DNA from: Thunnus maccoyii
Taxonomy: Eukaryota; Chordata; Actinopteri; Scombriformes; Scombridae
Assembly: GCF_910596095.1 (NCBI RefSeq)
Contig: NC_056539.1
Location: 13,898,501 to 13,962,500 of the forward strand
Direction: 5' to 3'
DNA: 64,000 nucleotides
Each line of letters opens with the position of its first letter. The stretch's first letter is position 1. The notes under the pieces were generated by a model. It saw nothing but the letters and a program-made list of their open reading frames with translations. It was not told the DNA's origin and did no database searches. Positions 5,346 to 59,518 of the stretch are shown here, in pieces. The position numbers and the translations under genes were made by a program.

Positions 5346-26293
<20,948 letters not shown>

Positions 26294-28514: not shown

Positions 28515-38418
<9,904 letters not shown>

Positions 38419-41053: not shown

Positions 41054-44000
41054 TCAAAACTCAAATGCTGGATTGTCTCTCTCCTCCCATGTTGGCACAT
41101 CAGAGATGTTCTTATTTCCTGGACAGATCAGAGGTTAGGAATACACAGTTCATGCAACACAGTTAACTGTATATTAATTTGTGTAGTGGTGCAGCTTCAT
41201 TACAGTCGGTCTCACCTCTTTTTGTGAATTGTCTCCTTATCAACAAAGCCAGTCCTATCAGGGCAAGTGGCACGACAGCAGCAGCTGCCCCTACACCAGT
41301 GTACATCAGCATGGCGGCCCCCACAGGCATTCCCTCCTCTGGAACACAGGAAAATCACTGTCAATATAAACTTCTCCCTTTTTTGTTTTATTTTCACCGC
41401 ATGTTTCTTCATCAGCATATTATTCATCATTATTTTGTAATATATATTTTTAGCCACACTGCATGGCTCTAGGCCCACCACTTTGGTCCAGACTGAAATG
41501 TCTCAACAACTATTGGCTGTATTGCCATGAAATATTGTACAGATTTCCTGACTTTTATATCACCATGAGGTTCACATTTCATTTTTCTGTGAAATGTCTC
41601 AAAAACTGTTGGATGGATTGCCATGAAATTTGGTACACACATTTATGGTGTACCAAAGGATGAATTGTAATCACTTTGGTGTTCACCTGATCACCATCAG
41701 GACAAAATTTCAATTAGTCTAATACTTTGGTTTATGACCAAATACCTGCAAAACTGATAACATTACCACCAGCCTCAGCTGTATTTTGTGTTTGTGCTAC
41801 TTACAAAAAGCAAATATTAGACATTAGTATGCTATCATGCTAAATTAAAATGGGGAACATGGTTACCATTACACCTGCTTAACATCAGTATGCTCGTATT
41901 GTAAATATGTTGACGTTCATATTTAGTACAAAGCCCTAAGTACAGAGTCATTAGCATGGCTGCAGACTCTTATTGTTGTTTTAGATAGCCTATTCATCAA
42001 TCCTTTAATAAATCAATAACCACGACTACTGTCATATAGCACACAAAGACTACTCCAATCAAAGATAACTGTATTTTTATTCAGTCAGTAAAAGAAGCAC
42101 TATAATTCCAAAAATTGAGTTACCTGTGCAGGTAGGAAGTGTGTCACTCCAAAACCCAGTGGAGGAGCAAAACAGCACCCCTGTGCCGTTCAGAAGATAC
42201 CCTTCTTTACAGGTGAAAAGACACTTGGAGCCAAAGCTGAAATTCCCCAGGGGATGGGAGCACTTCATAGACAGAGGTAAAGACAAGGCACGGATGGTCT
42301 CACACTGTACCGCTGGAAAGGACAGAAATTGTAATAAGATCAGCTGTTAAAATAACAGTGGCTAGTAAGTTTATGGTAATGCTGGGCAGTGGGAACTCAC
42401 GCTGGCAGGTGGGTAGGTCCTGACTCCAGTGGCCTGAGGTGTTGCATGTCATAGCTGATGTTCCTCTCATCCAGAAACCCCCATTGCATTCAAAGTCACA
42501 GTGGGAACCATAACTGAAAGGGGAGTATGCATGGCTGCAGTTCATGCTCCCATGTTGTGGAGCCTTGGCCAGTAGGGGGCATGGGCGTGCTGTAGATAAC
42601 ATTAAACATAAAATATGACCATCAGCTTCACATCAAATAATCCTCATCATCTGAATCAAAGTGGAAAAGAAGAGTATTTCCTACAAGGCCAAACCCTTCT
42701 TATGGGTTAATGGCATAGCTGTGCTAATTAAGCTACCAGTGAATGTTTGCACTAATATAAACACACATTTTAAACACACATTTATAGTAATGAGTGGAAG
42801 GAATATATTTCAAGTGCAACTCTCTTTTATGTGACTTATTACCCAGACAGCGGGGTATTTCTGTGCTCCACGTGCCCACGGAGGTACACTCTGTCTCAGC
42901 AGTTCCATTCATGACAAAACCCTGCTCACACGTTGAGTTGCACTGAGAGCCAAAACTGAACACTCCATGGGGATCAACGCAGGCTAAGGAGCCATGAGCG
43001 GGAGAGTTCAGAGCGAGACATTTCTTAGCTGGAGGTGAACAGGGAAAAGGAGAGATATTCAAGAGCCATAGTGTACAGTGTAAAGAAGTACGGTCAAGGC
43101 ATCTAAACCTTTAAATGAATTGCTCCTCTGTTGATTTATGATTAACAGATTATGATGCAGGGATTTTTTTTTACCCAAGCAACGTGGGATGTTTGTGCTC
43201 CATGTGCCCACAGACGTGCACTCTGTGTCAGCCGTCCCATTCAGGACAAAACCCCTCTCACAAGTTGATGTGCAATGAGAACCAAAACTGAACTCTCCAT
43301 GTGGATCAGAGCAGACAAAGGAGCCATGAGGGGGAGAGGTCAGAGTGGGACATCTTTTAGCTGGAACAGAAAGAAGGAAACACCAGCAATATATTTCAGA
43401 GCTGCATGTGGTAAAGAGATACTGGAATGTAATCTTATCTTATGAAAATGTTTCTGTTTTCTTACCCAGGCAATGTGGGATGTCGGCACTCCACACGCTC
43501 AAGGAAGTGCACCCAGTTATAGCTGTTCCATTCAGGAGAAAACCCTCCTCACATGCTGACACACACTTAGAACCAAAACTGAAGGAACCATTTGGGTCAG
43601 AGCAAGATAAGGAGCCATGAGGGGGAGAATTGATAGGACGGCACCTCTTAGCTTGAAGACAAACAGACAGAGATTACTTACACTTGAAAAAGTGACTTCA
43701 TTACTTGATGTTTAAGATGTTGTTTCCCTGAGCTGGATGAGCAATGAGAACAGAATGAGCAGCATTTATTCTGATTGTATATCTGCTTTCATACTTATCT
43801 ACAGTCAGCAATTAGTGTGTACTCATACCCTGGCAGACAGGAAGTGCGTGACTCCAGTTGCCCTGTGACAAACATTTTGTCATGTTTGTGCCAATCAGAT
43901 CAAATCCCTCTTCACACTGGACTGTGCACACTGAGCCATAGCTGTACACACTTAGACGGTCTTGGCATTGCATGGTGCCATGGGGAGGAGCCTTTAGACT

Positions 44001-46242
44001 GTTGCACTGTACCGCTGTAAAAGAAGAAAGAGTCAATCATTGTCAGAGGAGTGAACATTTTTATATATTTTCGGGAAGCTTGGGTCACTTTCAGGGAGGT
44101 GTGAAAGCAATGACTATAAAAATCATAAAGGTTACAGACCTTTGCATGCAGGTGTAGGTTTGCTCCATTGTCCAGAGGCCAGACAAGTGATTGTGTTCTC
44201 TCCAGTCAGGTAGAAGCCTTCCTGGCAGGTGAAGTTACAGCCTGAGCCATAGGAGAAAGGCTCCACAGTGTCCACACATGTCATGTTGCCCGGTACAGGA
44301 AAGATAATGGGGGAGCACTTTTTCACTGTGGTGGGATACAGATATCAATCAGTCAGCTTGAACAGCTTTGTATTATGAATGCGCTTTTATAAACAGAGTG
44401 TGAGAATAAAGTAGTGGCATGAATAATAACGCTGACATAATTCATAGTCAAGGGAAACAGCAACTTATCACCCACATTAAACCACAATGTTGTTTACCCA
44501 ATGCAGAAATAAATGAGTGTGAAGTAAAGCGATAACAGATGTGACCTGGATCTGATCTGTGGTACAGTCTGGGCAGGATATGGCTACACACTGAGGCCAG
44601 CTAAATATTAGTAAAAGGTGACCATCAGTCTATTAAAGGAGTATTACAAAAAAGGAAGTCACAAGAAAAGTGACAGTTGCAGAGTATTAAGTAAGAGTAT
44701 TTCAAAAATAACATTCACATAGGGCTTCACAGAAGAATCACAAAGAATTATTAAAATTGAAGCATCATTTTTTTTATCATGATAAAGCTTAAAACATCAT
44801 TTGGTCTAATTTTACTATTCAAAGGTAATGACAATCACCTAACCTGTACATGTTGGGACACTGGCTGTCCACTGGCCTGTGTGGTCACATTGTGTATGGT
44901 CGTGTCCACTGAGCCCATAGCCTTCGTCACACCTGAACTCACAGGTGGAGTTGTAGCTATAAGGTGCAATAGGGTGGCTGCAGTTCATGTTACCTCCACT
45001 GATATTGGTGTTGTTCAGAACTGGACACTGTTGAACTATCTCAAGCAGTAAAAAATATTTTCTGTGTAACTTGGACATCTGAAAGAACAATTATTTTTAC
45101 ATTGATTGATACCCAGTGGCCATACCTTGACACAGAGGAACAGGGTGGTCCCAACGTCCACTAGCTTGGCACAGCAGTTGGGGCGCGCCTACCAATCGAA
45201 AGCCAAGTTCACAGTGGAAATGGCAGGAAGAGTTGAACTGACTGGACCCAAAGGGATGCAAACAGTTGTGAGAACCTTGTTCTAGATCTGGCAAGGGTTC
45301 GCATGAGATTGCTGACCCAAAGTATTGAAGAGAAAACAAATAAGTTATTTAACTTATCACGGAGAGAGCTCATGGCTTTTTTCAAGATTATGACAATGTT
45401 TGCTCACCCTCTTCACAGCGTGGTCCCTGGAAACCAGGATGGCACCGGCAGGTGTAGTTCCCTATGGTCTCCACACAGTCTGCATGGGCACTGCAGGAAT
45501 CCTGTTTGCAAGAGACTAAATACATACAGAGAGATATCTCATATGCATATTATAGACATATTAGAGTCAGTAAATGTGTCCATGAAACAAAATAAAGTGT
45601 GTTTTACCAGTGTAGCAGACAGTTCCTTTCTTTTTTTTGCAGTCCGCATTGTTCCATTTGGCCGTGTCGTCTGTCCTCTTGATGTATATCTCCACACAGT
45701 GGTCGTTTCCGTCATTTGGCTCCCCAGGTGCCCAATTCTGTTCCTCTTCAGACACAGTCTTGTTGGTTCCTACCCAGGTCCACTTTCCTGCCTTTCTGAG
45801 GATGCCTGCCCAATAATAATTGCGGTGCTGTGGCAGCATACTGTTGAGGAAGTCAGCCTCCTCCTGGTTCTGGATGACTACCATGTCTGTGAAGTGCTGC
45901 TGGCACCACTTGCGGGCCTCTTCCCATCTACGGTTTGGACTGATGCTGTAGTTGTACATCCATCCCTGTGCTCCTCCTCCACTGCTCAGGTCTAATATTA
46001 GATAAATATATATGATGAGACAAAATCGAACTGGTGAAGCAAAGAATTTGGTGTCTATAGGATTATGCAGACCTACCGTGGGCAAGTACAATCAATGCAG
46101 CTATCAGCACCCTGTGATGCAGGCTTTGTCTAACATTTACTGATTCTTGCAACATCTGAAAGAGAAAGATCATATATAAGAATGAATGTACAGTGTATGT
46201 ATGTATAAATGTTCAACACTGATATTTTACAGGTCTTACCAT
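41054..46242 (-). CDS. selp: P-selectin-like adhesion receptor (lectin, EGF, nine CCP, TM)
   Basis: Type I membrane adhesion receptor of the selectin family, expected on platelets and endothelium, binding sialyl-Lewis-x-type glycans. Exons in transcript order: 46242-46240 (ATG only), 46155-46077, 45991-45608 (C-type lectin), 45515-45408 (EGF), CCP1 45311-45126, CCP2 45035-44844, CCP3 44325-44140, CCP4 44014-43829, CCP5 43651-43466, CCP6 43360-43175, CCP7 43028-42843, CCP8 42589-42401, CCP9 42312-42124, TM 41338-41216, tail 41118-41054. Every domain exon is phase 1-1; total 815 aa against about 830 in human SELP, with the same nine CCP repeats. The signal peptide ends near LIAALIVLAH; the lectin domain starts GWMYNYS (about residue 37). 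It carries NWAPGEPN but KWNNADC instead of WND. The TM helix is about residues 765-785 (GAAAAVVPLALIGLALL), then IRRQ. The short tail ends NPAFEF. CCP5-7 are recent mutual duplicates. The one-codon first exon follows the E-like gene's structure. Confidence 0.88.
41485..41975 (+). repeat. selp: Interspersed fish repeat (gtccagactgaaatgtctca family)
   Basis: Contains the internally repeated phrase attggatggattgccatgaa-like twice (about 41508 and 41604) and ends near gctgcagactctt. Another copy in the opposite orientation lies at about 60230-60545. It sits in the intron before the TM exon of the P-selectin-like gene. Confidence 0.55.
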
Positions 46243-46775
46243 ATGATCTGTCTTTAGTCACTCAGCGTGTGTCATTGCATTTACTCCACTTGGCTGAAGT
46301 TCACAAGAAAAATGGCATTAATTGTCCTTCAGTGAATGTGCCAATGTCAAATGTCGCAATATCACTTTTAACACAGCTTCCTCTCAGGAAGAAAACCACA
46401 ACACCACCCATAAAACTCCAATCGGAAAACACACACATGGTCACACATCTACATGCATGCACACACTGCACATACACATATAACCACAGAGATACTCACA
46501 AATGGTGTTAACAATTTTATTTATTTAATCAAATGTAATCTTTAACAAAGAAGGAAAATACCACAGAAACACAACGCTAGTGTTATTAAATACAAATATT
46601 TTAAGTTAACATGTGCACTATCATGTATACACTTAATATCCAAGCAGTATATTAAATTTAAGCTTTAACATACAGTATACAGTATATTAGACAAAACAAT
46701 TCACATACTGGCATATCCTGGTACATATAGCCTGTGCAGCCCGAAAAGGTTATTAATATTATAATTAGTTCACTA

Positions 46776-47100
46776 GTAGAGCTGCCATGATTAGTCGATT
46801 GACAGCAACAATTTTGATAAACGAAAAGTTGTTTAAGCAATTTTTAATTAAAAACACACAAAAATTTACTGGTTCCAGCTTTGTGGTTTTAACACTCCTC
46901 TGACAATAAAGTGGTTATTTTTGGGTTTTAGACTTTTGGTCGGAAAAAACAAGATATTTTGAAAAGTAACCATGGTCTCTGGGAACTTGTGATGGACATT
47001 TCTCACAATTTGCATTTTACACACTACACGAATAATTGATTAATCAAGAAAACAATCAGTAGATTCATTGACAATGAAAACAATGGTTAGTTGCAGCCCT
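46776..47100 (-). repeat. AT-rich inverted-repeat MITE, copy 4
   Basis: Starts tagagctgccatgattagtc and ends ggttagttgcagccct, so both ends of the family are present in inverted orientation. Located just downstream of the L-selectin-like stop codon, possibly within its 3' UTR. Confidence 0.6.
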
Positions 47101-47186
47101 GTGCACTAGTGCACTATGAACATGATTAAGTGCATGTGGCTGATTATAGATCTGTTTCAAAACATAAGCTAAGTTTCCAGTTGCCT

Positions 47187-50100
47187 TCATCCCTGAACCT
47201 CACTGGATGGACTTGTCACTTCTTCAGGCTGCCTGTGAATGAATAACATTGACATGATTTACTAGATAATATATATTACAGATACAGTAAAAAGAATTTG
47301 CATTTTAAAGGACAAAATCAATACACTTTTCAACAGCAATATACTGTACATTTTTTGTAAAAAAAAATTAACTATGAAATGTCGAACATCAACATAGAGT
47401 GCATAAAGGGTGGAGCTGCTTTGGACAAGTGCCAGAAATTTCAACACTGACCTTTCTTGAGCAAGTTTCTTTCCTGTGAGAAATGTACAGAGGAACAGAT
47501 TATTGAGGTCTATTGCAATATGATTGCATTGCATCTCATTTCTGTGAAGTGTAATTGAGAAACACTGACTTTTTCTGCGCTTCATCCAGCAAAAACAGAT
47601 GCAGCAGCAGGCAGTGAGGGCTCCACACCCAGCTACAGCCAACAGAGCTTGTTTATAGCCTGAGAAAATACAACACAGTTTTATCCTGAGTCATACAATA
47701 CTTGTCAAAGTTATACTTATTTCCTTAAAACAAGTTACTACTAGGGCCATTGCTGCTGCTGCCAATAATGATAACAATAACTTCCAGTTGAAGTAGAATC
47801 ATTTGGACAGAGAAACAGCAAAACGTGTGCAATAAATTACTCTTGTTTAAAAAGTATTTAAATAACTTCAATTAATTACTTTCACAAATGGGCCTCGGGC
47901 CGCTCCAGGCACCAGTGATCCCACAGGTAACATTTGGTGAACCTATCATCAGGAAGCCCGGGTTGCATTTAAAATGGCAGGTTGAGTTGAATGTCTGGTT
48001 TCCTTCTGTGCAGTTATGGTATGCGTTAGATTGAGACAGAGGGGGGCATTCCACAGCTGAGGGCACACACAGGATGAGGTTTAACAGGGACACAGTTATG
48101 AAATGTCTATTGTGACAATATTGCACTTTTAGAGCACATAAATGCTGATGTAAGTATTTTGTGAGAGAAACAGAAAAACCTGTGCAATAAATTACTCTTG
48201 TTTAAAAGGTATTTAAATAACTTCAATTAATTACTTTCACAAATGGGCCTCGGGCCGCTCCAGGCACCAGTGATCCCACAGGTAACATTTGGTGAACCTA
48301 TCATCAGGAAGCCCGGGTTGCATTTAAAATGGCAGGTTGAGTTGAATGTCTGGTTTCCTTCTGTGCAGTTATGGTATGCATTAGGTTGAGACAGAGGGGG
48401 GCATTCCACGGCTGGGGGCACACACAGGATGAGGTTTAACAGGGACACAGTTATGTAACGTCTATTGTGAAAACATTACACTTTTTAGAGCACATACATG
48501 CTGATGTAAGTATTTTGATCAGTATTTTGAATTTGATTCCCAGCCTGCATGGCACCAGGAAACAGAGGAAACAGATGCCATGCGTAAGATGACAAGTCAA
48601 ATGTCATGTTCTGAAGAAATGCAGTAGAATCAGTACTATACAGAGGATATTCAGGAGGTGATTAAAAAAACTCATCAGAATGTGAATTTGTAAAATAATA
48701 CAAAAACAGACCTGGTCTCATCTCTAACGAGTAACCCCTGATTTTGCTGACCATGATAGTTTTCATTTATGCTTCCACTTTAATTGTCTGGGAAAGGCTT
48801 CAAAAGGCTTCTAAGGGGATAAGAGCATCACAGACAACATCTAAGATTTTACTGGTGCCTTATGTTTAAAGAAATAATCAACATGAACTACCTCTTGTTA
48901 ATCTTAAACCTGTGATAATGGATTTTTTGCCACTTTGGGGGCAGATGAAACAGGCTGTGAAAACAACACTGACATTATCACCACCAATATGATACAACAT
49001 GGTGAAGTTGTTGGCAATTAGTGTTAGCCTGTTTACACATCCAGCAGTCACAGAGCGAGATAAGCATTCATTTGGAATTGTATCTCTGGCCATCTGGTGA
49101 ATGTAAGTCAAATATTTACTCTCCTTTTAGCTCTGTTTTTGGTCTCCACCAGTTCCTGAGGAAATGTGGTAAATCTGACAATGTTATTGTGAACTGCACA
49201 TGAGCCGTGCGGGAAAAGAAAACTTGACAAACATGGCAACAGTAACTGAGGGGGGTTGAGCTTAGGGAATGGTAACATCTCTGTGGCTTCATCACTATTA
49301 CATGCAAGTACTGTATGTGATCCATTGTCAATATAGAAATATTGGTTACAGCCGCTTCAAAGAATAGGTTTGTGTTTTTTCAGGTCTATCGTAAAACAAA
49401 ATTCACATGCACATATGTCCATTTGAAACAGCTTTTAGTCACCGTCATTGTACTTTTGAATGCTTTTTTTTTGTACAAAATGAGGACTGTTGATTTTTTA
49501 CATTGGAATTACATCTCTTTACAGTCAGTATATTCAGGATGAACAATGACAGTGACCAAAAACTCTTTCATAGTATATATAGACATGTGAGTATTGTTTT
49601 AAGATAGGCTTGAAAAATGTGACCCTATCCTTTAAATAAACATTACCCATGGTATTAGTTGGTGACTTATTTTCAAATAGCTCTCTCCTTACCTGTTTGG
49701 CACCTGTCTCCCTTAAAGCCAGGATCGCAGTGGCATTTAATGTTTTCTATGGTCTCCTCGCATCTTCCTTTGCCACATATAGTTGTATTGCATTGGGCTG
49801 TCAAGAAAAGATGCAATATTAAAACAACCTCTCCCAGTTTTGAAACAACCTTCAAAAACAACCAGCTTTGAATACCTTTATAACATGCCGTGTATTTCTT
49901 ATTGATGCATTTCTCATCATTCCATTTCCCTCGGTTTTCTCCTGAGTTGGTGTAGATCTCCACACAAAACTCGTTGCTGAAGTTGTTGTTGGGCTCGTTT
50001 GTTGCCCATGACTGCTCACCAATCCATGTGCTGTTATTCCCAACCCAGGTCCAAGTTTCATTCTTGTGGTTTTTTGTGATGCCAATCCAAAAATATGGAC

Positions 50101-50478
50101 TTTTAGTTCTGTTTGGCAGCAGGGAGACCAGATAGTCGTTCTCTTTTTGGTTTTGGATGACCACCATGTCTGTGTAATGCGTCTGGCACCACTGTCTTGC
50201 CTGGGTCCAATTCATGGCTGTGGGTGAGTAATGATATGTCCAACCTAAGGTAGTCTCAGCTAAGGGGCCACCTAATAGTATTAAATATAAAAAAATAAAA
50301 ATATTATGAAAGAAAAAAATGTAAGGACTACTCATAATGTGATATTAAGCAGAATTGATTGACAGATAATCTTCATGTTCAAGTCTCATGCCAACAGATC
50401 AAAACCCAGCAAATATATATTTATGCCATATTGTTAATAGCAGTACTCACCAAGGAGGAGGATAAGTGTCCACTTCAT
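47187..50478 (-). CDS. sell: L-selectin-like adhesion receptor (lectin, EGF, two CCP, TM)
   Basis: Selectin with the L-selectin layout, expected on leukocytes for rolling and homing. Exons in transcript order: 50478-50451, lectin 50271-49876, EGF 49797-49693, CCP1 48411-48235, CCP2 48056-47880, TM 47659-47570, a 22-base exon 47473-47452, last exon 47232-47187; all in phase, 346 aa (human L-selectin about 372-385). The signal peptide begins MKWTLILLLGG; mature start is near GWTYHYS (residue 20). The lectin domain keeps NEPN with the Glu before the next Cys (SNEFC) and GKWNDEKC, so the calcium site looks complete. The EGF domain is residues 142-177. The two CCP exons are nearly identical copies. 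The TM helix ALLAVAGCGALTACCCICFC is followed by a very basic WMKRRKRKKLAQER and the tail end EEVTSPSSEVQG. The micro-exon and last exon were placed by splice signals and phase only. The small CCP count, middle position and tail favour L-selectin. Confidence 0.87.
47807..48517 (-). repeat. sell: Tandem duplication (about 355 bp unit) carrying the two CCP exons
   Basis: Unit one spans about 47807-48161 and unit two about 48162-48517. Each holds a 177-base CCP exon with its flanking intron. By eye only three differences separate the exons, and the flanking intron is also near-identical, with a few substitutions and a one-base indel. The duplication therefore includes non-coding DNA and is recent. 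Confidence 0.9.
49358..49635. repeat. sell: Second copy of the ttaaaggata inverted-repeat element
   Basis: Ends caaagaataggtttgtg ... tcaggtctatcgtaaaac and gttttaagataggcttgaaa ... ccctatccttt are inverted copies matching the element at 13531-14299. Located in the intron between the EGF and first CCP exons of the L-selectin-like gene. Confidence 0.5.
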
Positions 50479-50738
50479 TTTTAGTGAGTGACCTACAAAC
50501 ACCTGCTGTCTGTCTAAAGAAAAATAATCAGAAGGCAAAATAGTAATGCATATAACAAATTCATTATGGAAAGTAAATGAATAAGAACCTGCTTACTTAC
50601 CTAGAATTGGTATTGTATTATATTAATGAAATTGTTTCCAAATCCTTGTTTTTCTAATCATATCAAACATAAAACATTACACCACCGCGGTACAGCACGT
50701 GCATGTTAGTTTGCTGCAAGCAGGGGCCAGTGTCAGGC

Positions 50739-50745
50739 TTTTATA
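50739..50745 (-). promoter_or_regulatory. sell: Candidate TATA box of the L-selectin-like gene
   Basis: The minus strand reads AAATATAAAAGCC here. A plausible 5' UTR exon downstream ends at CCAATTCTAG before gtaagt (donor about 50600) and would splice to the exon holding the ATG (acceptor at about 50516). Spacing is typical for TATA to start site, but the start site is not known. Confidence 0.45.
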
Positions 50746-50759
50746 TTTGTCTAGGCCAT

Positions 50760-52183
50760 TCAGCACAATTATCATAGAATACATGGATGTTTACTGTACA
50801 GACTTAATGTAGGTGTTGATAGATTAGCTGAATGACTTAATGACTTGTTAAACTTGAACAGACATTCTGGGAAATGCCATGTTTCTGGTAAAGGTGGGCA
50901 AAAATTAAACAAAATTTAAAATGAAAGTAAAGCACAGTGAGGGTCACCCAAAGAAATGATCACCCCAAAAAAGAGTTTAAAAGGGATAATTTTGCAACTT
51001 AATTACATGTTCTGGGTCACTTTTGCTGCTTTTTTATTGTCTTTACTTGAACACAATTTGGGTTTCAGAGCACACCAGGATACTGGGATAGACACTATTT
51101 ATTGAGGAATTACATTAAAAAACAAATGGAGCGAACTACGCCTTTCGCACATTGCTTCATCAGATTCGCTCTGTGCTTGATTGCTCAATAGAGGGTCAAA
51201 CCAGTTCACACACAGCATCTCATTTTCTAATACAAATGCAAAAAAGGTAAACAACAGGCCATGATTACACCTTACAAAATCAGACATAAACATACATTCC
51301 CATAAGACTCATATCCACAGATAATGAGATGCAGTTATCCCATCTCTAATATCACAGAGGATGAGTACATCCATGCACACCTTTACATAAAATACCATAT
51401 ATCATAGAGTACAAAATACAAGACTTTACTCATAATAGGTACTGTACAAAATACATAATACATTTCAAAATAAACATTACATCATAATACATCTCAAAAA
51501 TAGGGAGAGAATACTATTACAGACTGGATATACCTGTCTTAATGGAGGAGGGGAGGGAACACTTTTTTGACTTTCTGTAACTTGCCCTGCATCAGCCGGC
51601 ACCCAGGAGAGAGGCATTGCTGTGCACGGGGTGCTTTCATCTTTTTTTCAACAATTTGGGTTTATTGAAATAATCTTTTTCTTTAAAATACTGACTAAAA
51701 CCACTTGTAGCTTGTGACTAGTGTTTCAGTATCCTATTTGGCGGTTTTTAGTGACACTGCTGCTCTGCATTCTGACATGTTGAGAGCTAACGCTGTCACC
51801 TTCACTCTCATGATGTAAGATATTGGATCTATTTCTGCCTCCTTCAAAATGCTGACATAGAAGACTCTGAAACAAATGATGATGAACTGTAAAACAGATT
51901 ACTCCTGTGATATTCCCCTTCCTCACCCACATATCTTTTACTATCCTGTTATGACCCCTGTAATGAGGGTGACAGAGACAGACAAGAGGTCTGTATTGTA
52001 GTTGGAAAAGGTCCTTCCTGGACCCCTGAAAAAACACAATGTCCTGCAAAGTCAGGAGGAATGTCACTACTCAAAGTGTGGGAATGGGTTGTTGTGTGTG
52101 TGGAGCTGAACCCTTGTACGGGTGAATCATAGTAGTGACACAACAAATGCACACTGCTGCACAGTATACCAGTATATAAATAT
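50760..52183. other. Intergenic stretch between the L- and E-selectin-like genes
   Basis: No exon was seen. Sequence at 51090-51240 (gcctttcgcacattgcttca, gattcgctctgtgcttg) resembles an interspersed fish repeat. The rest is AT-rich and unremarkable. Confidence 0.5.
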
Positions 52184-52189
52184 TTTATT
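52184..52189 (-). terminator. sele: Candidate polyadenylation signal of the E-selectin-like gene
   Basis: AATAAA on the minus strand, about 630 bases after the stop codon. The implied 3' UTR holds four ATTTA pentamers (52177-52181, 52269-52273, 52374-52378, 52385-52389). In AT-rich DNA these could be chance. Confidence 0.35.
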
Positions 52190-52814
52190 ATGTAATATAT
52201 ATTGTTGAACAGACAGCAGATATTAATCATGATAAAGGAAGATACATAAAAATGAATTTTGCCAAAAGTAAATGATGGTTTTAAGTTTTGTTATGAACAA
52301 AAAAAATCAACAAAGCAATACAGAAAGAACGGGAAAGTTCTCAACATTTCAAATGCAATAACTATCTACTGAATAAATAGTACATAAATACTGACATCAA
52401 CCCTGAAATTCACAGTTCAGCAATGACATGGCAATGCACAAAGTTATGTAACATTTACAATAACATGAATAGAGCCACCTTTCCAGCATGTTCATAAAGA
52501 TATAGAACAATGTGTTCAATTTAAAACTCCCCTTGGGAGGAATCACATGTCAACATTACAGAACAAATCATAGATTAGTTTTGAAGTTCAAGCAAACCTC
52601 ATCAAATCATCAAATGCAAAGGTCTGAAAAAACATTCCTCTCATCATTGATAGCTCTGACACATTGAGTTTTTCCAGTTAACCATCTAAGTTTCATACTA
52701 ATGTAAAATAATAGATACCGTTCACATTACTGTGAGTAATGACTCATACAGTTTTGTTTTTTAAAAAAAGACAATTCTTTTGTCAAATCCTTTGTTGTCC
52801 CTGGAGAACATGCT

Positions 52815-55800
52815 CTATATGAGGCTGTCAACACTGCTTTTGTAGACCTGTGGAGGGGCTTCTATGTCAGAGTTGCTGTAAGAAAAGACAAAAAAAGAAG
52901 ATGAGCACTGTAATTCAACAAACTTATGTTAAAAAATGTACGATTTAAGAGAGTTGAATGCTTATCTAACCTGTTCAGCTCAAACTTGGTTGCTTTCTGC
53001 TTCATTCGTTTCAGGATCCACATAGCCAGAGACAGAGCGGATAATGACAGAGCGCCCCCTCCTGCCACACTAGTGGCAATGGTGGCAATCTGAGATGCAG
53101 GAGCTGTGGAAACATCATCAAAGGTGAATTATTTTACTTTTGAGACCAAAACTGGTATTTTAATCTTGTTTTGTATTTAAATCTAATTTTATATACAGTA
53201 TGAATTTCATTTATTTGTTATACCTTGGCAGCTTGGTTCCTTTCCAGTCCAGTTGCCGTGATGATTGCATGTCAGCAGCTCATGTCCATCTAATGAGTAA
53301 TCTTGATTGCATGTGAAGGAGCACTGAGAGTTGTATACCAGCTCACTGTTTGAGCAGCTGATCTGACCGTTTTCAGGAGACTTAAGCAGCGGGCATCTTA
53401 CGGCTGTAGGAAAAAAACAGCAAGAATTTTGACGTTAACCATCACGAATATCTCATTTCAGCAATGTGACAACAGGCCACAGCCTTGAAACCTTTGAGCA
53501 TCCAAATAAGTAAGAATTACAATAGTGCAGGTGACATGGGTTCACGTGTATACCTGTGCAGGTTGGTGGTGTGGAGGTCCACTGGCCTGAATGTACACAC
53601 TCCATGCTGAGTGCACCTTGGAGCTCATGGCCTTCATCACAGCTGAAGGTGCAGACTGTACCAGATGCATGAGGGGTCCCAGCAGAAGCAGGTGAAGAAA
53701 GAGAAGGGGTGCAGCTGATATAGCCTCTTGTCGGAACCTCAGGAGCGGGACATACTATTGCTGCAAAAAAAGATGAATGAGATGTTATTACATAGTACAA
53801 ATAGACTGGGAAGTTCTGTAGTAAGTAAACAGTGCTGTAAGCACAGATTTATCTTAAGATATGCTACCATACCTTTGCAGGTAGGTATGGCTTCGGTCCA
53901 CTGTCCGCCCTCAGAACACTGAATAGTTTGCACTCCTTGCAATTCAAAGCCTGCTTCACAGCTGAAGCTGCAGGTTGAGTCTGGCCGCAGTTCAGTTAAA
54001 GGCTGGCTGCACTTGGGGATCAGGTGAGCTTCTGCCTCTGGATTTTGGCAAGTGATGGCTAACAAAGAAAAAAAAAGCAAAATACATTAAAAAAAAACAC
54101 ATATATAGTGTGTACTTGTCACAAAGTCACAGAACAAGTGAACGTTTCCTAATCATAAAAAGAGGGTGGTGGGATTACACCTGAAGTGTGCCCTTACCTT
54201 CACAGCGAGGCATCTCCTCACTCCACTTAGCTGCTGATGTGCATGTCACCTCGCTCTGTCCCACCAGGTTATAGCCGGGGACACAGCTGAAGCTGCAGGT
54301 GTTCCCATAGCTGAGCCTCATGTCTGCATCGTCTCCACAGCTGACAATGCCATTCTCTAGGTGGAGAGCAGGGCACCGGACGGCTGCAAACCAGAGGAGG
54401 AATACAAGAGGTCAGCTGCAGCCTTTAAAAAAAAAAATCCTACAGCTTTTCCTGCATAATTTCAGACTTAAATACAAAACTGTGAAAGGTACATAACATG
54501 AAATATGTGCACTTACGAACACAAAACGGTGTTGAGGCATCCCACTTTCCTGATGCTTCACATTGCAGAGTGTTAGATGGGGAACCAGCAAGTTCATAGC
54601 CTTCATCACAGGTAAACACACAGGTGGACTGGTAGCTGGAGGGGCCCAGTGGATCGGAGCACTTCATGGATCCACTTTCTGGATGGGACAGCTTCGGACA
54701 CTGAACCACTGTGGACAAGAGGCCAATCAAAAACTCATTACAGCAGGGTTCTTCATTGTGATGATAACATTTAGTTGCTCTGAATGTGATCACTTGAAAT
54801 TGCAGCCACAATGGTCAGTATCACCTTTGTGTGGGTATTAATGCAATAAAACTCAACTCACATTGACATGTAGGAGGCTGCTCTGACCAGGTTTTATTTT
54901 CAGTGCATCTCAGGGGTCTCTGCATACTCAGCTGGTATCCTTCCACGCAAGAATAGCTGCACTGGGAATCGTAGGAGAAGTTTCCATACTTAGCAGTGCA
55001 ATTTACACTTCCGTTATCTGGGTCGGTCACATTGTCTTTGTTACACTTAACAACTGCCAACAGAGAAAACAAGACACAGTTAGATATCAAGTCCTGGCTG
55101 TAAGTGACTTAAAGTGATATAAACTTTAAACAAGAATACCATCAGTGTATTTTCTTACCTTGCTCACACTTCTCTCCATAAAAGCCTTTATAGCAGTTAC
55201 ACCTGTGGCTGTTAATGGTTTCTACACATTCTCCATAGAGACATGAGTCATTCTTACAGGCAGCTGGGAAAAGAAGACATACTTCAATTTGGCTTGCATA
55301 GAATATAATATTTCTCTGAGCTATGAATTATTTTAAATAGTTAAATCAACAGTTTTCTTGATAATGAACAACAATACAAAAACAAAGGCAGCTAAAATAG
55401 GCAGTTTTTGTATACTGATCCCTAACATTTTCTCACCTGTGTAGCACAGAGCGGTCTTGCTTTTCCTACAACTTTCATCGTTCCATTTGCCCGACTCTGT
55501 AGGTCTTTTAATGTACATCTCCACACAATCCTCACTTTCCCCTGTATTCGTTGTGCTCTGGGCGTTGTTTGGTTCTCCTTTTGCCCAGTTGGTTGCTTCT
55601 AGTGTCAGAGTCTTGTTGGTGCCCACCCAGGTCCAGACATTATCTTTCTTGCGGATCCCAATCCAGTAGTGGCCTTTTTTCTCGGGCAGCCAGCTGCTGA
55701 GATGCTTGATCTCCCCCTGGTTCTGGATGGCCACCATGTGTGTGTAGTGATTCATGCACCAGTCTCTTGCTTCTGTCCAATTCATGGTGTTGTTGGAGTA

Positions 55801-56145
55801 GTGGTACGACCAGCCTTCTACACTAGTCAACATGCACAGCACTGAAGATGTAGGACAGAGATGCATGTTAGATGGTGGAGCAATAAGGATGAATTAAAAA
55901 AGTAAAAAAAAAAATGCTGGGAGTGGTAATGGTTCCATTTGATTTACATACTTGAGAAAAGAATGGCCAAACTGATCCATGAGGCAGAGTGGTTCGATCC
56001 ACGGGTCTGAAGTAATCCAAAGCAGAACTCCTGTGAGAATAAAACAAAAAAAAAGAAGATAAATTAAGGTAAATCTATAGATGCATCACTGACCACAGGC
56101 AAACAATGAAGACATTTTCTCTGAGCAAACCTCAACACTTACCAT
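52815..56145 (-). CDS. sele: E-selectin-like adhesion receptor (lectin, EGF, six CCP, TM)
   Basis: Selectin expected on activated endothelium, capturing leukocytes. Exons in transcript order: 56145-56143 (ATG only), 56030-55952, lectin 55841-55437, EGF 55263-55159, CCP1 55053-54862, CCP2 54708-54517, CCP3 54383-54198, CCP4 54058-53873, CCP5 53760-53554, CCP6 53403-53224, TM 53103-52971, tail 52875-52815; all phases agree, 642 aa (human SELE 610, also six CCP). The signal peptide includes SWISLAILFSMLCMLTSVEG; mature W38 (WSYHYSNNTMNW). The lectin domain has NWAKGEPN, an extended loop (STTNTG) absent in human, SEDC and GKWNDESC, so the calcium ligands are present. CCP5 carries an extra Ser/Pro/Ala-rich insert. 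The TM segment is ATSVAGGGALSLSALSLAMW, then ILKRMKQK, and the tail ends APPQVYKSSVDSLI. CCP3 lacks an ATG, so it is easily missed in ORF scans. Assignment to E rests on six CCP and the end position in the cluster. Confidence 0.89.
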
Positions 56146-56248: not shown

Positions 56249-56366
56249 TTTTATGCACCTCACCAGCTATTTTCCTGGAAGTCATCTACAAGTGGACTTT
56301 TCAGTGGAATTCCCCACTCCCCTCCCTCAACTGTCCCATCCCACCGGAGGCCTTGGAAACTTTCCC
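56249..56366 (-). promoter_or_regulatory. sele: E-selectin-like promoter with NF-kB sites and TATA-like box
   Basis: On the minus strand a TATA-like GCATAAAAG lies at 56248-56256, about 105 bases before the ATG. Upstream are GGGGAATTCC (56306-56315), a perfect match to the kB consensus GGGRNWYYCC, and a kB-like GGGAAAGTTTCC (56355-56366). A weaker GGGAATTTTT follows near 56397-56407, and a STAT-type TTCCAGGAA lies at 56272-56280. Mammalian E-selectin promoters are known to use clustered kB sites just upstream of a TATA box. The arrangement is seen; function is inferred. Confidence 0.6.
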
Positions 56367-58487: not shown

Positions 58488-58671
58488 TTGGGGTCGCTAG
58501 TGCGAGCTTGCCTTATCCAGTATGGCTGCAGAGCGTCTGTCCCTTTAAGGAAATAAACGTACTCGGCCAAATAAGGCATTAGTATGGTATGAGCGCACCA
58601 TGTTGTCTACCGTTGGAAGACCTCTGAGCATTTTGAGAGTGTCCGGTGCTTGGTGCAAAGTGACAGTCGCG

Positions 58672-59518
58672 ATGGCAGACGCTCTGACTAAAATCCCAGA
58701 TGTGGAGATTGATCCTGAGGGAACCTTTAAGTACATACTGGTCAGAGTGAAAGTAAAAGATGGCGATGTTCATAAAGACATTGTCCGGGGCACAAAAAGT
58801 GCACAGTACCACAGTAAGTTCATGAATGTAGTTTGCTGCTGAGCGTCAAGTGCGTCAGTTCAGCTCGAGATATAACACGCAACACAGATGATGATGATTA
58901 TTATTGCAGCGGCATATGTCTAATTTGACCCATTATAGTGTTCTTAGAGTGCAACGTGCAAACGTGCACTGTGCATAAATCCCGGTGACAGTGCACACAC
59001 CACGGACAGCAACAGTTTGCCAATATTTACAAACTGGCAAAAAATGGAGGCATCAGCTGCAGGAGATGAAATGATGCCACAGTAATTTGTTAAATTTGAT
59101 CATTGCTGTTATTTGCCTTTCCTGTAACTAGTGAAACCAGATTGTATTTTTTCATTAATGGACATTTTTTGAATTATTTACAGATCATATTTTTGAGAAG
59201 GTCAGTCCAGCTATGGAGGCTTTGGGAATGGAGTGCAAATGCCTTGGAGGAGGGAAGATAGAGCACAACAGCCAAGCGAAAAAAATAAGAGTGTTTGGAG
59301 AATCAACTGTGAGTTCATTTGATTGCAAATGTTTTAATGTGGATTGGATACCAAGTTTTTACTTCTGTGCATACTGGATAATATTTTAATATGTGAATAT
59401 CTTTTGCTTTCTCTGTTATTTTCAGGGCTTTGGTAAAGCAGACCACTCTGTGTCTGCAGAGAAGTTGAAGAGTGCCTTCAGTGACTATGAGGTCACCTGC
59501 AGTGACGACACTAAATAG
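58672..59518 (+). CDS. phpt1: 14 kDa phosphohistidine phosphatase
   Basis: Removes phosphate from histidine in proteins, with no metal needed. Exons 58672-58813, 59184-59308 and 59426-59518 join in phase to 119 aa (human PHPT1 125). The protein starts MADALTKIPDVEID, matching the human IPDVDID start region, then GTFKYILVRV, DIVRG and SAQYHNHIFEKV; the His here is the equivalent of catalytic His53. The exon-2 segment CECLGGG-type loop reads CKCLGGGKIEH, and KKIRVFGES and YEVTC close the fold. It is shorter than human after RV because the APRSGAP-like loop is reduced. An in-frame upstream ATG at 58600 would add 24 residues (MLSTVGRPLSILRVSG...), but the start at 58672 fits the family. The neighbour is the divergently oriented E-selectin-like gene, about 2.5 kb away. 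Confidence 0.93.

Follow-up and report, generated by a model that had tools for sequence, protein, structure and literature searches.

Selectin genes and their CCP numbers

Three selectin-like genes of Thunnus maccoyii carry nine, two, and six CCPs, the same numbers as the human P-, L-, and E-selectin genes. We asked whether this agreement records an architecture that already existed before fish and tetrapods parted, or whether the two sides came to the same numbers separately. The genes lie within the window, by which we mean the whole stretch of 64,000 nucleotides analyzed here, and are referred to as P-like (fP), L-like (fL), and E-like (fE). Our answer is that this is probably an ordinary teleost P/L/E-like tandem locus, and that its 9, 2, and 6 match the human numbers by coincidence. 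Separate tandem duplications of exons in each lineage would have produced the equal counts.

Gene models and domain content

We rebuilt the locus exon by exon and obtained three complete predicted selectin genes in tandem on the minus strand. The cluster spans 15 kb of the window, from the last base of the fP stop codon (41054) to the first base of the fE start codon (56145), and its reading frames, each running from ATG to stop, encode 814 (fP), 346 (fL), and 642 (fE) amino acids. The SELP-like gene (coding span 41054..46155) consists of a signal exon (46077-46155), a lectin exon (45608-45991), an EGF exon (45408-45515), nine CCP exons (CCP1-9, from 45126-45311 to 42124-42312), a TM exon (41216-41338), and a tail exon (41054-41118). 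In the SELL-like gene (47187..50478), exons for the signal (50451-50478), lectin (49876-50271), and EGF (49693-49797) are followed by CCP1 (48235-48411), CCP2 (47880-48056), the TM exon (47570-47659), and two tail exons (47452-47473 and 47187-47232), which are the least certain portion of the model. The SELE-like gene (52815..56145) has an ATG that closes exon 1 (56143-56145), then a signal exon (55952-56030), lectin (55437-55841) and EGF (55159-55263) exons, six CCP exons (CCP1-6, from 54862-55053 to 53224-53403), and TM (52971-53103) and tail (52815-52875) exons. Borders of the internal exons carry GT/AG in all three models, and the lectin, EGF, and all CCP exons are phase 1-1. Exon use is predicted from genomic sequence in each case, with signal peptides and TM segments assigned by eye.

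Pfam found one Lectin_C domain per protein and Sushi stretches numbering nine in fP (E 1.6e-79), two in fL (1.4e-17), and six in fE (1.4e-57). The EGF exons were recognized through their six-cysteine pattern, and those of fP and fE also fell within the PDB alignment; at E<=0.001, Pfam gave an EGF domain for fP alone, scoring under the curated cut-offs. When fP and fE were used as PDB queries, the top six sequences for each were human E-, L-, and P-selectin, and the lectin-EGF-CCP1 portions of both were far closer to human selectin structures than to other lectins. All three proteins have the layout of the selectin family: an N-terminal C-type lectin, one EGF-like domain, CCPs, a TM segment, and a short tail. 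The first-pass annotation had described a P-L-E cluster with 9, 2, and 6 CCPs, full exon sets, phase 1-1 domain exons, signal peptides, and TM segments, and the gene models and Pfam confirmed this description, the last two features by eye. The cluster is intact and is ordinary for a teleost, a cluster as such being already known from Fugu (excerpt of PMC514892). The papers and excerpts consulted gave no CCP counts for teleost selectins, which does not prove them unpublished.

Judging from the family they belong to, these proteins would act as rolling-adhesion receptors. The lectin would bind fucosylated, sialylated glycans with calcium, with the EGF domain bracing it; the CCPs would keep the lectin off the membrane, and the TM segment and short tail would anchor the protein. 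In selectins, E80, N82, E88, N105, and D106 (human numbering) serve in the calcium site. The lectin exons encode all five residues in fE and in fL. This five-residue site fails in fP alone, where the calcium/fucose site reads E80, N82, D88, N105, N106, and A107, and the D88, N106, and A107 residues suggest that the fP lectin is probably weaker or altered in specificity. The fP lectin also has a shortened loop and WAG in place of WIG. The fE lectin carries H at the position of Y48, and an insertion lengthens its loop following EPNN(x)Q by six residues. Mammalian L-selectin possesses a membrane-proximal shedding stalk; in the fL model the last CCP is separated from the TM segment by only about five residues, and a mammal-like shedding stalk is not apparent there. 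With regard to P-selectin in fish, a zebrafish single-cell study describes thrombocytes without P-selectin expression, contrary to an earlier report that it cites (excerpt of PMC4742565).

Origin of the CCP numbers

The fish CCP exons record part of their own duplication history. In fL, a CCP exon and its flanking intron have undergone a young head-to-tail duplication (47801..48517, minus strand), seen by base alignment. The copies occupy 47801-48161 and 48156-48517, overlap by 6 bases at the junction, and are identical at 345 of 361 aligned bases, with one gap column. Mismatches are rarer inside the exon (3/177) than outside it (13/184; Fisher p 0.019), so the copies look constrained. The 7% divergence outside the exon suggests an age of about 9-18 million years if the neutral rate is assumed to be 2-4 per billion sites per year. 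Two older L CCPs homogenized by gene conversion might look like a young duplication, but the contiguity of the copies argues against this; an assembly error is a possible source as well, though a divergence of 4.4% is high for alleles.

A second duplication is found in fP, where CCP5, CCP6, and CCP7 (42843..43651, minus strand) are exon duplicates of the fish lineage. They share 62-75% amino acid identity among themselves and 30-48% with every other fish CCP, and the remaining fish CCP pairs, L excepted, reach at most 53%. From these identities, fish P would have had about seven CCPs before the expansion, if no losses occurred. A search of introns across the whole window detected no relics of CCP exons; outside the modeled exons, the best match to a CCP query had an E value of 0.07 and the best match overall (to an EGF query) 0.009.

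To compare ranks with human, we used provisional human CCP sequences, of which E CCP1-2 alone agree with PDB text. Positional homology of the CCP exons was not found with these mostly provisional sequences: of the 17 fish CCPs, 1 had its best human partner in the namesake gene and at its own rank, which is the chance level. With rank disregarded, 10/17 had their best partner in the namesake, against about 7 expected at random. A tree of the CCPs grouped human repeats with one another, namely the L pair (92.8/98), E3 with E5 (97.6/98), and E2 with E4 (92/82). It also paired fish P9 with human P9 (40.2/87), human E6 joining them next (87.3/94), and this pairing across fish and human suggests that the P repeat nearest the membrane may be old. 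Some old identity at the level of genes may thus survive among the CCPs, given the 10 namesake matches and the pairing by position of the last P CCP.

The human counts are 9 for P, 6 for E, and 2 for L (excerpt of PMC7076219), and an excerpt of PMC5395145 gives six consensus repeats for cattle SELP, not nine, which suggests that the CCP count drifts within mammals. The young L duplication, the fish origin of P CCP5-7, the single positional match, and the cattle count together argue that convergence accounts best for the CCP numbers, and not in L alone. As read from the repeat sequences, the case appears firmest for L and P and weakest for E, where it draws on the human side and on provisional human E CCPs. 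The first-pass annotation had held that the L-like count, at least, converged; the near-identical L copies uphold this, and P CCP5-7 extend it to a second gene. It had also offered a choice between an architecture predating the divergence of fish and tetrapods and converged numbers, and each half of that choice now applies to a different thing: ancestral CCP numbers are mostly refuted, and the three-gene tandem cluster itself is plausibly old, since Fugu also has one (excerpt of PMC514892).

Orthology of the three genes

We built unrooted trees of six genes from lectin and EGF sequence, using the three genes of this one fish species and three human genes with sequences taken from PDB output. 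Three trees were compared in particular: one keeping the fish trio apart from the human trio, one pairing fish and human genes for E only, and one with strict 1:1 pairs. We also counted private residues, those common to one fish gene and one human gene alone.

The private residues single out E. fE has nine with human E alone, three with P alone, and one with L alone, so that residues exclusive to fE and human E mark fE as a SELE orthologue. By the same measure fP (two with human P, two with L, four with E) showed no tie to SELP, which for one fish species is no proof of non-orthology, and fL (one with human L, four with P, one with E) showed none to SELL, in one fish species and on the longest branch. 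In simulations, nine residues private to fE and human E were reached in 12/150 runs under the E-only tree, 2/150 under the strict 1:1 tree, and 0/150 under the trio tree; the E-only tree explains the count best, though nine is high under all three. We accept E as orthologous between fish and human, and the sequences support orthology for E only. The one-to-one correspondence that the first-pass annotation had proposed to check by phylogeny therefore held in part, the E genes being linked through private residues and P and L lacking a link to their namesakes.

What happened to P and L is less certain. One reading, which we regard as possible but somewhat unlikely, is that E is orthologous and that fP and fL are each other's closest kin, with the human pair P and L related in the same way; independent duplication, or conversion between neighboring genes, would have produced this within each lineage. 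On lectin, EGF, and CCP1 together, fP and fL were sisters with support of 94.7/96 under LG+G4 and 86.9/83 under LG+C20 (with provisional human P and L CCP1 sequences), fP CCP1 grouped with the fL CCPs (91.2/81), and human P and L have seven private residues in common. The E-only tree was rejected in no run, its lowest AU value being 0.18. Furthermore, the signal against strict 1:1 pairing was confined to alignment columns 16-45, about 30 lectin residues (scan statistic, 85/3000 shuffles), as expected of a conversion tract. However, with these columns removed no tree was preferred (AU 0.19-0.66), the likelihood of the E-only tree was 4.3 units under that of the trio tree (LG+G4), and the two longest branches belong to fP and fL, making long-branch attraction possible. 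Recent conversion is also not clear, as codons of identical residues in columns 16-45 were no more alike for fP-fL (13/21 versus 36/54); they were somewhat more alike for fP-fE (12/17 versus 31/61) and fL-fE (12/18 versus 33/60). Long branches and local conversion are the likely causes of the P/L signal.

We are more doubtful of a reading in which E is the only stable orthologue, P and L of fish are a fish-specific pair that would have been remade, either through duplication or through gene conversion acting tract by tract on CCP1 and the lectin domain, and 9-2-6 was reached again by independent exon duplications in the three genes. If this were true, the cluster would amount to a module rebuilt again and again, in which length classes converge and sequence identity does not.

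A fish-specific triplication, in which all three genes descend from one ancestor after the split and calling them P, L, and E is mere analogy, is very unlikely. The best of the 105 possible six-gene trees did place the human trio together (78.8/73), and hence, being unrooted, the fish trio too. Among the three compared trees this one had the best likelihood on lectin and EGF under all four models, and six sites are common to the three fish genes and absent from the human genes. Against this, its advantage over the E-only tree was not significant (AU 0.26-0.34 for the latter on lectin and EGF), and none of the 150 simulations under it gave the nine residues private to fE and human E or their excess of six over the next partner. 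Gene order and the E-type residues would, in addition, have to arise twice.

The least probable reading is that the whole architecture, CCP numbers included, predates the fish-tetrapod split with each gene a strict 1:1 orthologue: gene order, orientation, and CCP counts are equal, the nine E residues and 10/17 namesake CCP matches agree with it, EGF alone preferred no tree (1:1 AU 0.39-0.48), and LG+C20 did not reject it (AU 0.137 on lectin and EGF, 0.113 with CCP1 added), but its tree lay 12.5 log units below the best, AU values were 0.024-0.030 under the three site-homogeneous models (LG, WAG, and JTT+F), 0/100 simulations under strict 1:1 (LG+G4) reached the observed likelihood difference of 12.4, CCP1 alone spoke against it (AU 0.018 and 0.024; provisional human P and L CCP1), and the inherited CCP numbers it needs conflict with the duplications in L and P and the single positional match.

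Cytoplasmic tails were tried as evidence of orthology and rejected, as shuffle z-scores against provisional human tail sequences proved unreliable at choosing the namesake. The score of fP with human P was 2.17, the best of three, that of fE was higher with human P (2.86) than with human E (2.17), and fL did not fit human L (-0.23). An alignment of the six selectins searched against viral and prokaryote contigs found no relatives. Studies that set leukocyte rolling in fish beside that in mammals would seem more safely anchored on the E gene.

A candidate promoter element of the E-like gene

Upstream of fE we located a match to the NF-kappaB consensus, GGGGAATTCC (56306..56315, minus strand), a candidate promoter element with a TATA-like CATAAAAG about 60 bp downstream of it. 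The consensus has five matches in the 64 kb, counting both strands, and of these, this one alone lies in the 600 bp that precede any of the three modeled ATGs. The chance of a match is about 2% within 300 bp upstream of E, and about 14% within 600 bp upstream of any gene. The SELE-type ATF2 sequence TGACATCA was absent from both strands of the 600 bp upstream of fE. For human SELE, an excerpt of PMC4973847 places four promoter sites within 150 bp of the start, three for NF-kappaB and one for ATF2/c-Jun. Through the candidate NF-kappaB site, fE is probably cytokine-inducible in endothelium. AU-rich elements showed no excess in the 3' regions, where ATTTA occurred 2, 3, and 4 times against shuffled means of 2.7, 4.3, and 4.0.

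Further selectins and neighboring genes

We searched the genome (782 Mb in 54 contigs) for additional selectins. With the E lectin-EGF query, the lectin exon of fE scored 292 bits, that of fP 124.9, that of fL 105.6, and the next lectin exon in the genome 54.6; no fourth selectin gene or second cluster was present among the 150 candidates scored out of 189. In the search for other lectin exons, none close to the three in the window appeared among the 150 candidates scored out of 510.

A lectin fragment on contig C19 (45% identical to the fE lectin), lying within 10 kb of an F5/8 C match, was suspected to be part of an F5-selectin pair. We rejected it because the stretches show a multi-CTLD gene, as seen by eye in the ORFs of two of four stretches. 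The region G000:C19 18985001-19005000 holds this multi-CTLD gene and an F5/8 C-type domain (by eye), and the 45% match covers query positions 62-130. Elsewhere, F5/8 C-type matches recur nine times in G000:C10 22092481-22099380, spaced at exactly 834 bases and eight of them scoring the same, which probably makes this a very young tandem array. In G000:C15 18991926-19113041, more than 20 C-type lectin exons are densely clustered on a single strand. The F5/8 C and Cu-oxidase matches yielded no clear F5 gene as a neighbor of the cluster.

On the P side of the cluster, an RXR gene lies on the plus strand within 15700-40000, with a zf-C4 exon at 21079-21411 and ligand-domain exons near 23673, 24259, and 26213; its best PDB match was RXR-gamma, 0.7 bit ahead of RXR-alpha. 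It is followed on the same strand by a LIM-homeodomain gene with LIM exons near 28923 and 34875 and a homeodomain near 36508, which by eye we take to be of LMX1 type. Just past fE is PHPT1, the gene for 14 kDa phosphohistidine phosphatase (58549-59386, plus strand), with two exons identified by Pfam Ocnus. We take RXRG and LMX1A to lie on human 1q23, near the selectins at 1q24. The RXR and LMX1-type neighbors would fit the same ancestral region, though they are not the immediate human neighbors.

Comparison with known systems

The order and orientation of the fish genes equal what we take to be those of human SELP-SELL-SELE, and the domain exons of the human genes are presumably phase 1-1, as in the fish. 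The immediate neighbors differ: the LMX1-type gene and PHPT1 stand in place of F5 and METTL18, which we take to flank the human cluster. In the proteins, the calcium/fucose site of fP is altered relative to human selectins, fE departs from them at position 48 and by its insertion, and fL does without a membrane-proximal stalk of human L length. Human and fish CCP exons are not positionally equivalent, the human sequences being mostly provisional. Equal domain numbers are easily taken for deep conservation; turnover fits better here, and fish selectins should not be named by CCP count.

Human SELP, SELL, and SELE have the domain order of the three fish genes, and their CCP counts (9/2/6; excerpt of PMC7076219) are also equal. 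In Fugu rubripes, fSELE, fSELL, and fSELP also lie in tandem (Zelensky and Gready 2004; excerpt of PMC514892); these three genes occupy about 10 kb, compared with 15 kb here, in an arrangement that the excerpt calls the same as in other vertebrates. Cattle SELP belongs to the same cluster but has six consensus repeats, fewer than the nine of human SELP (excerpt of PMC5395145).
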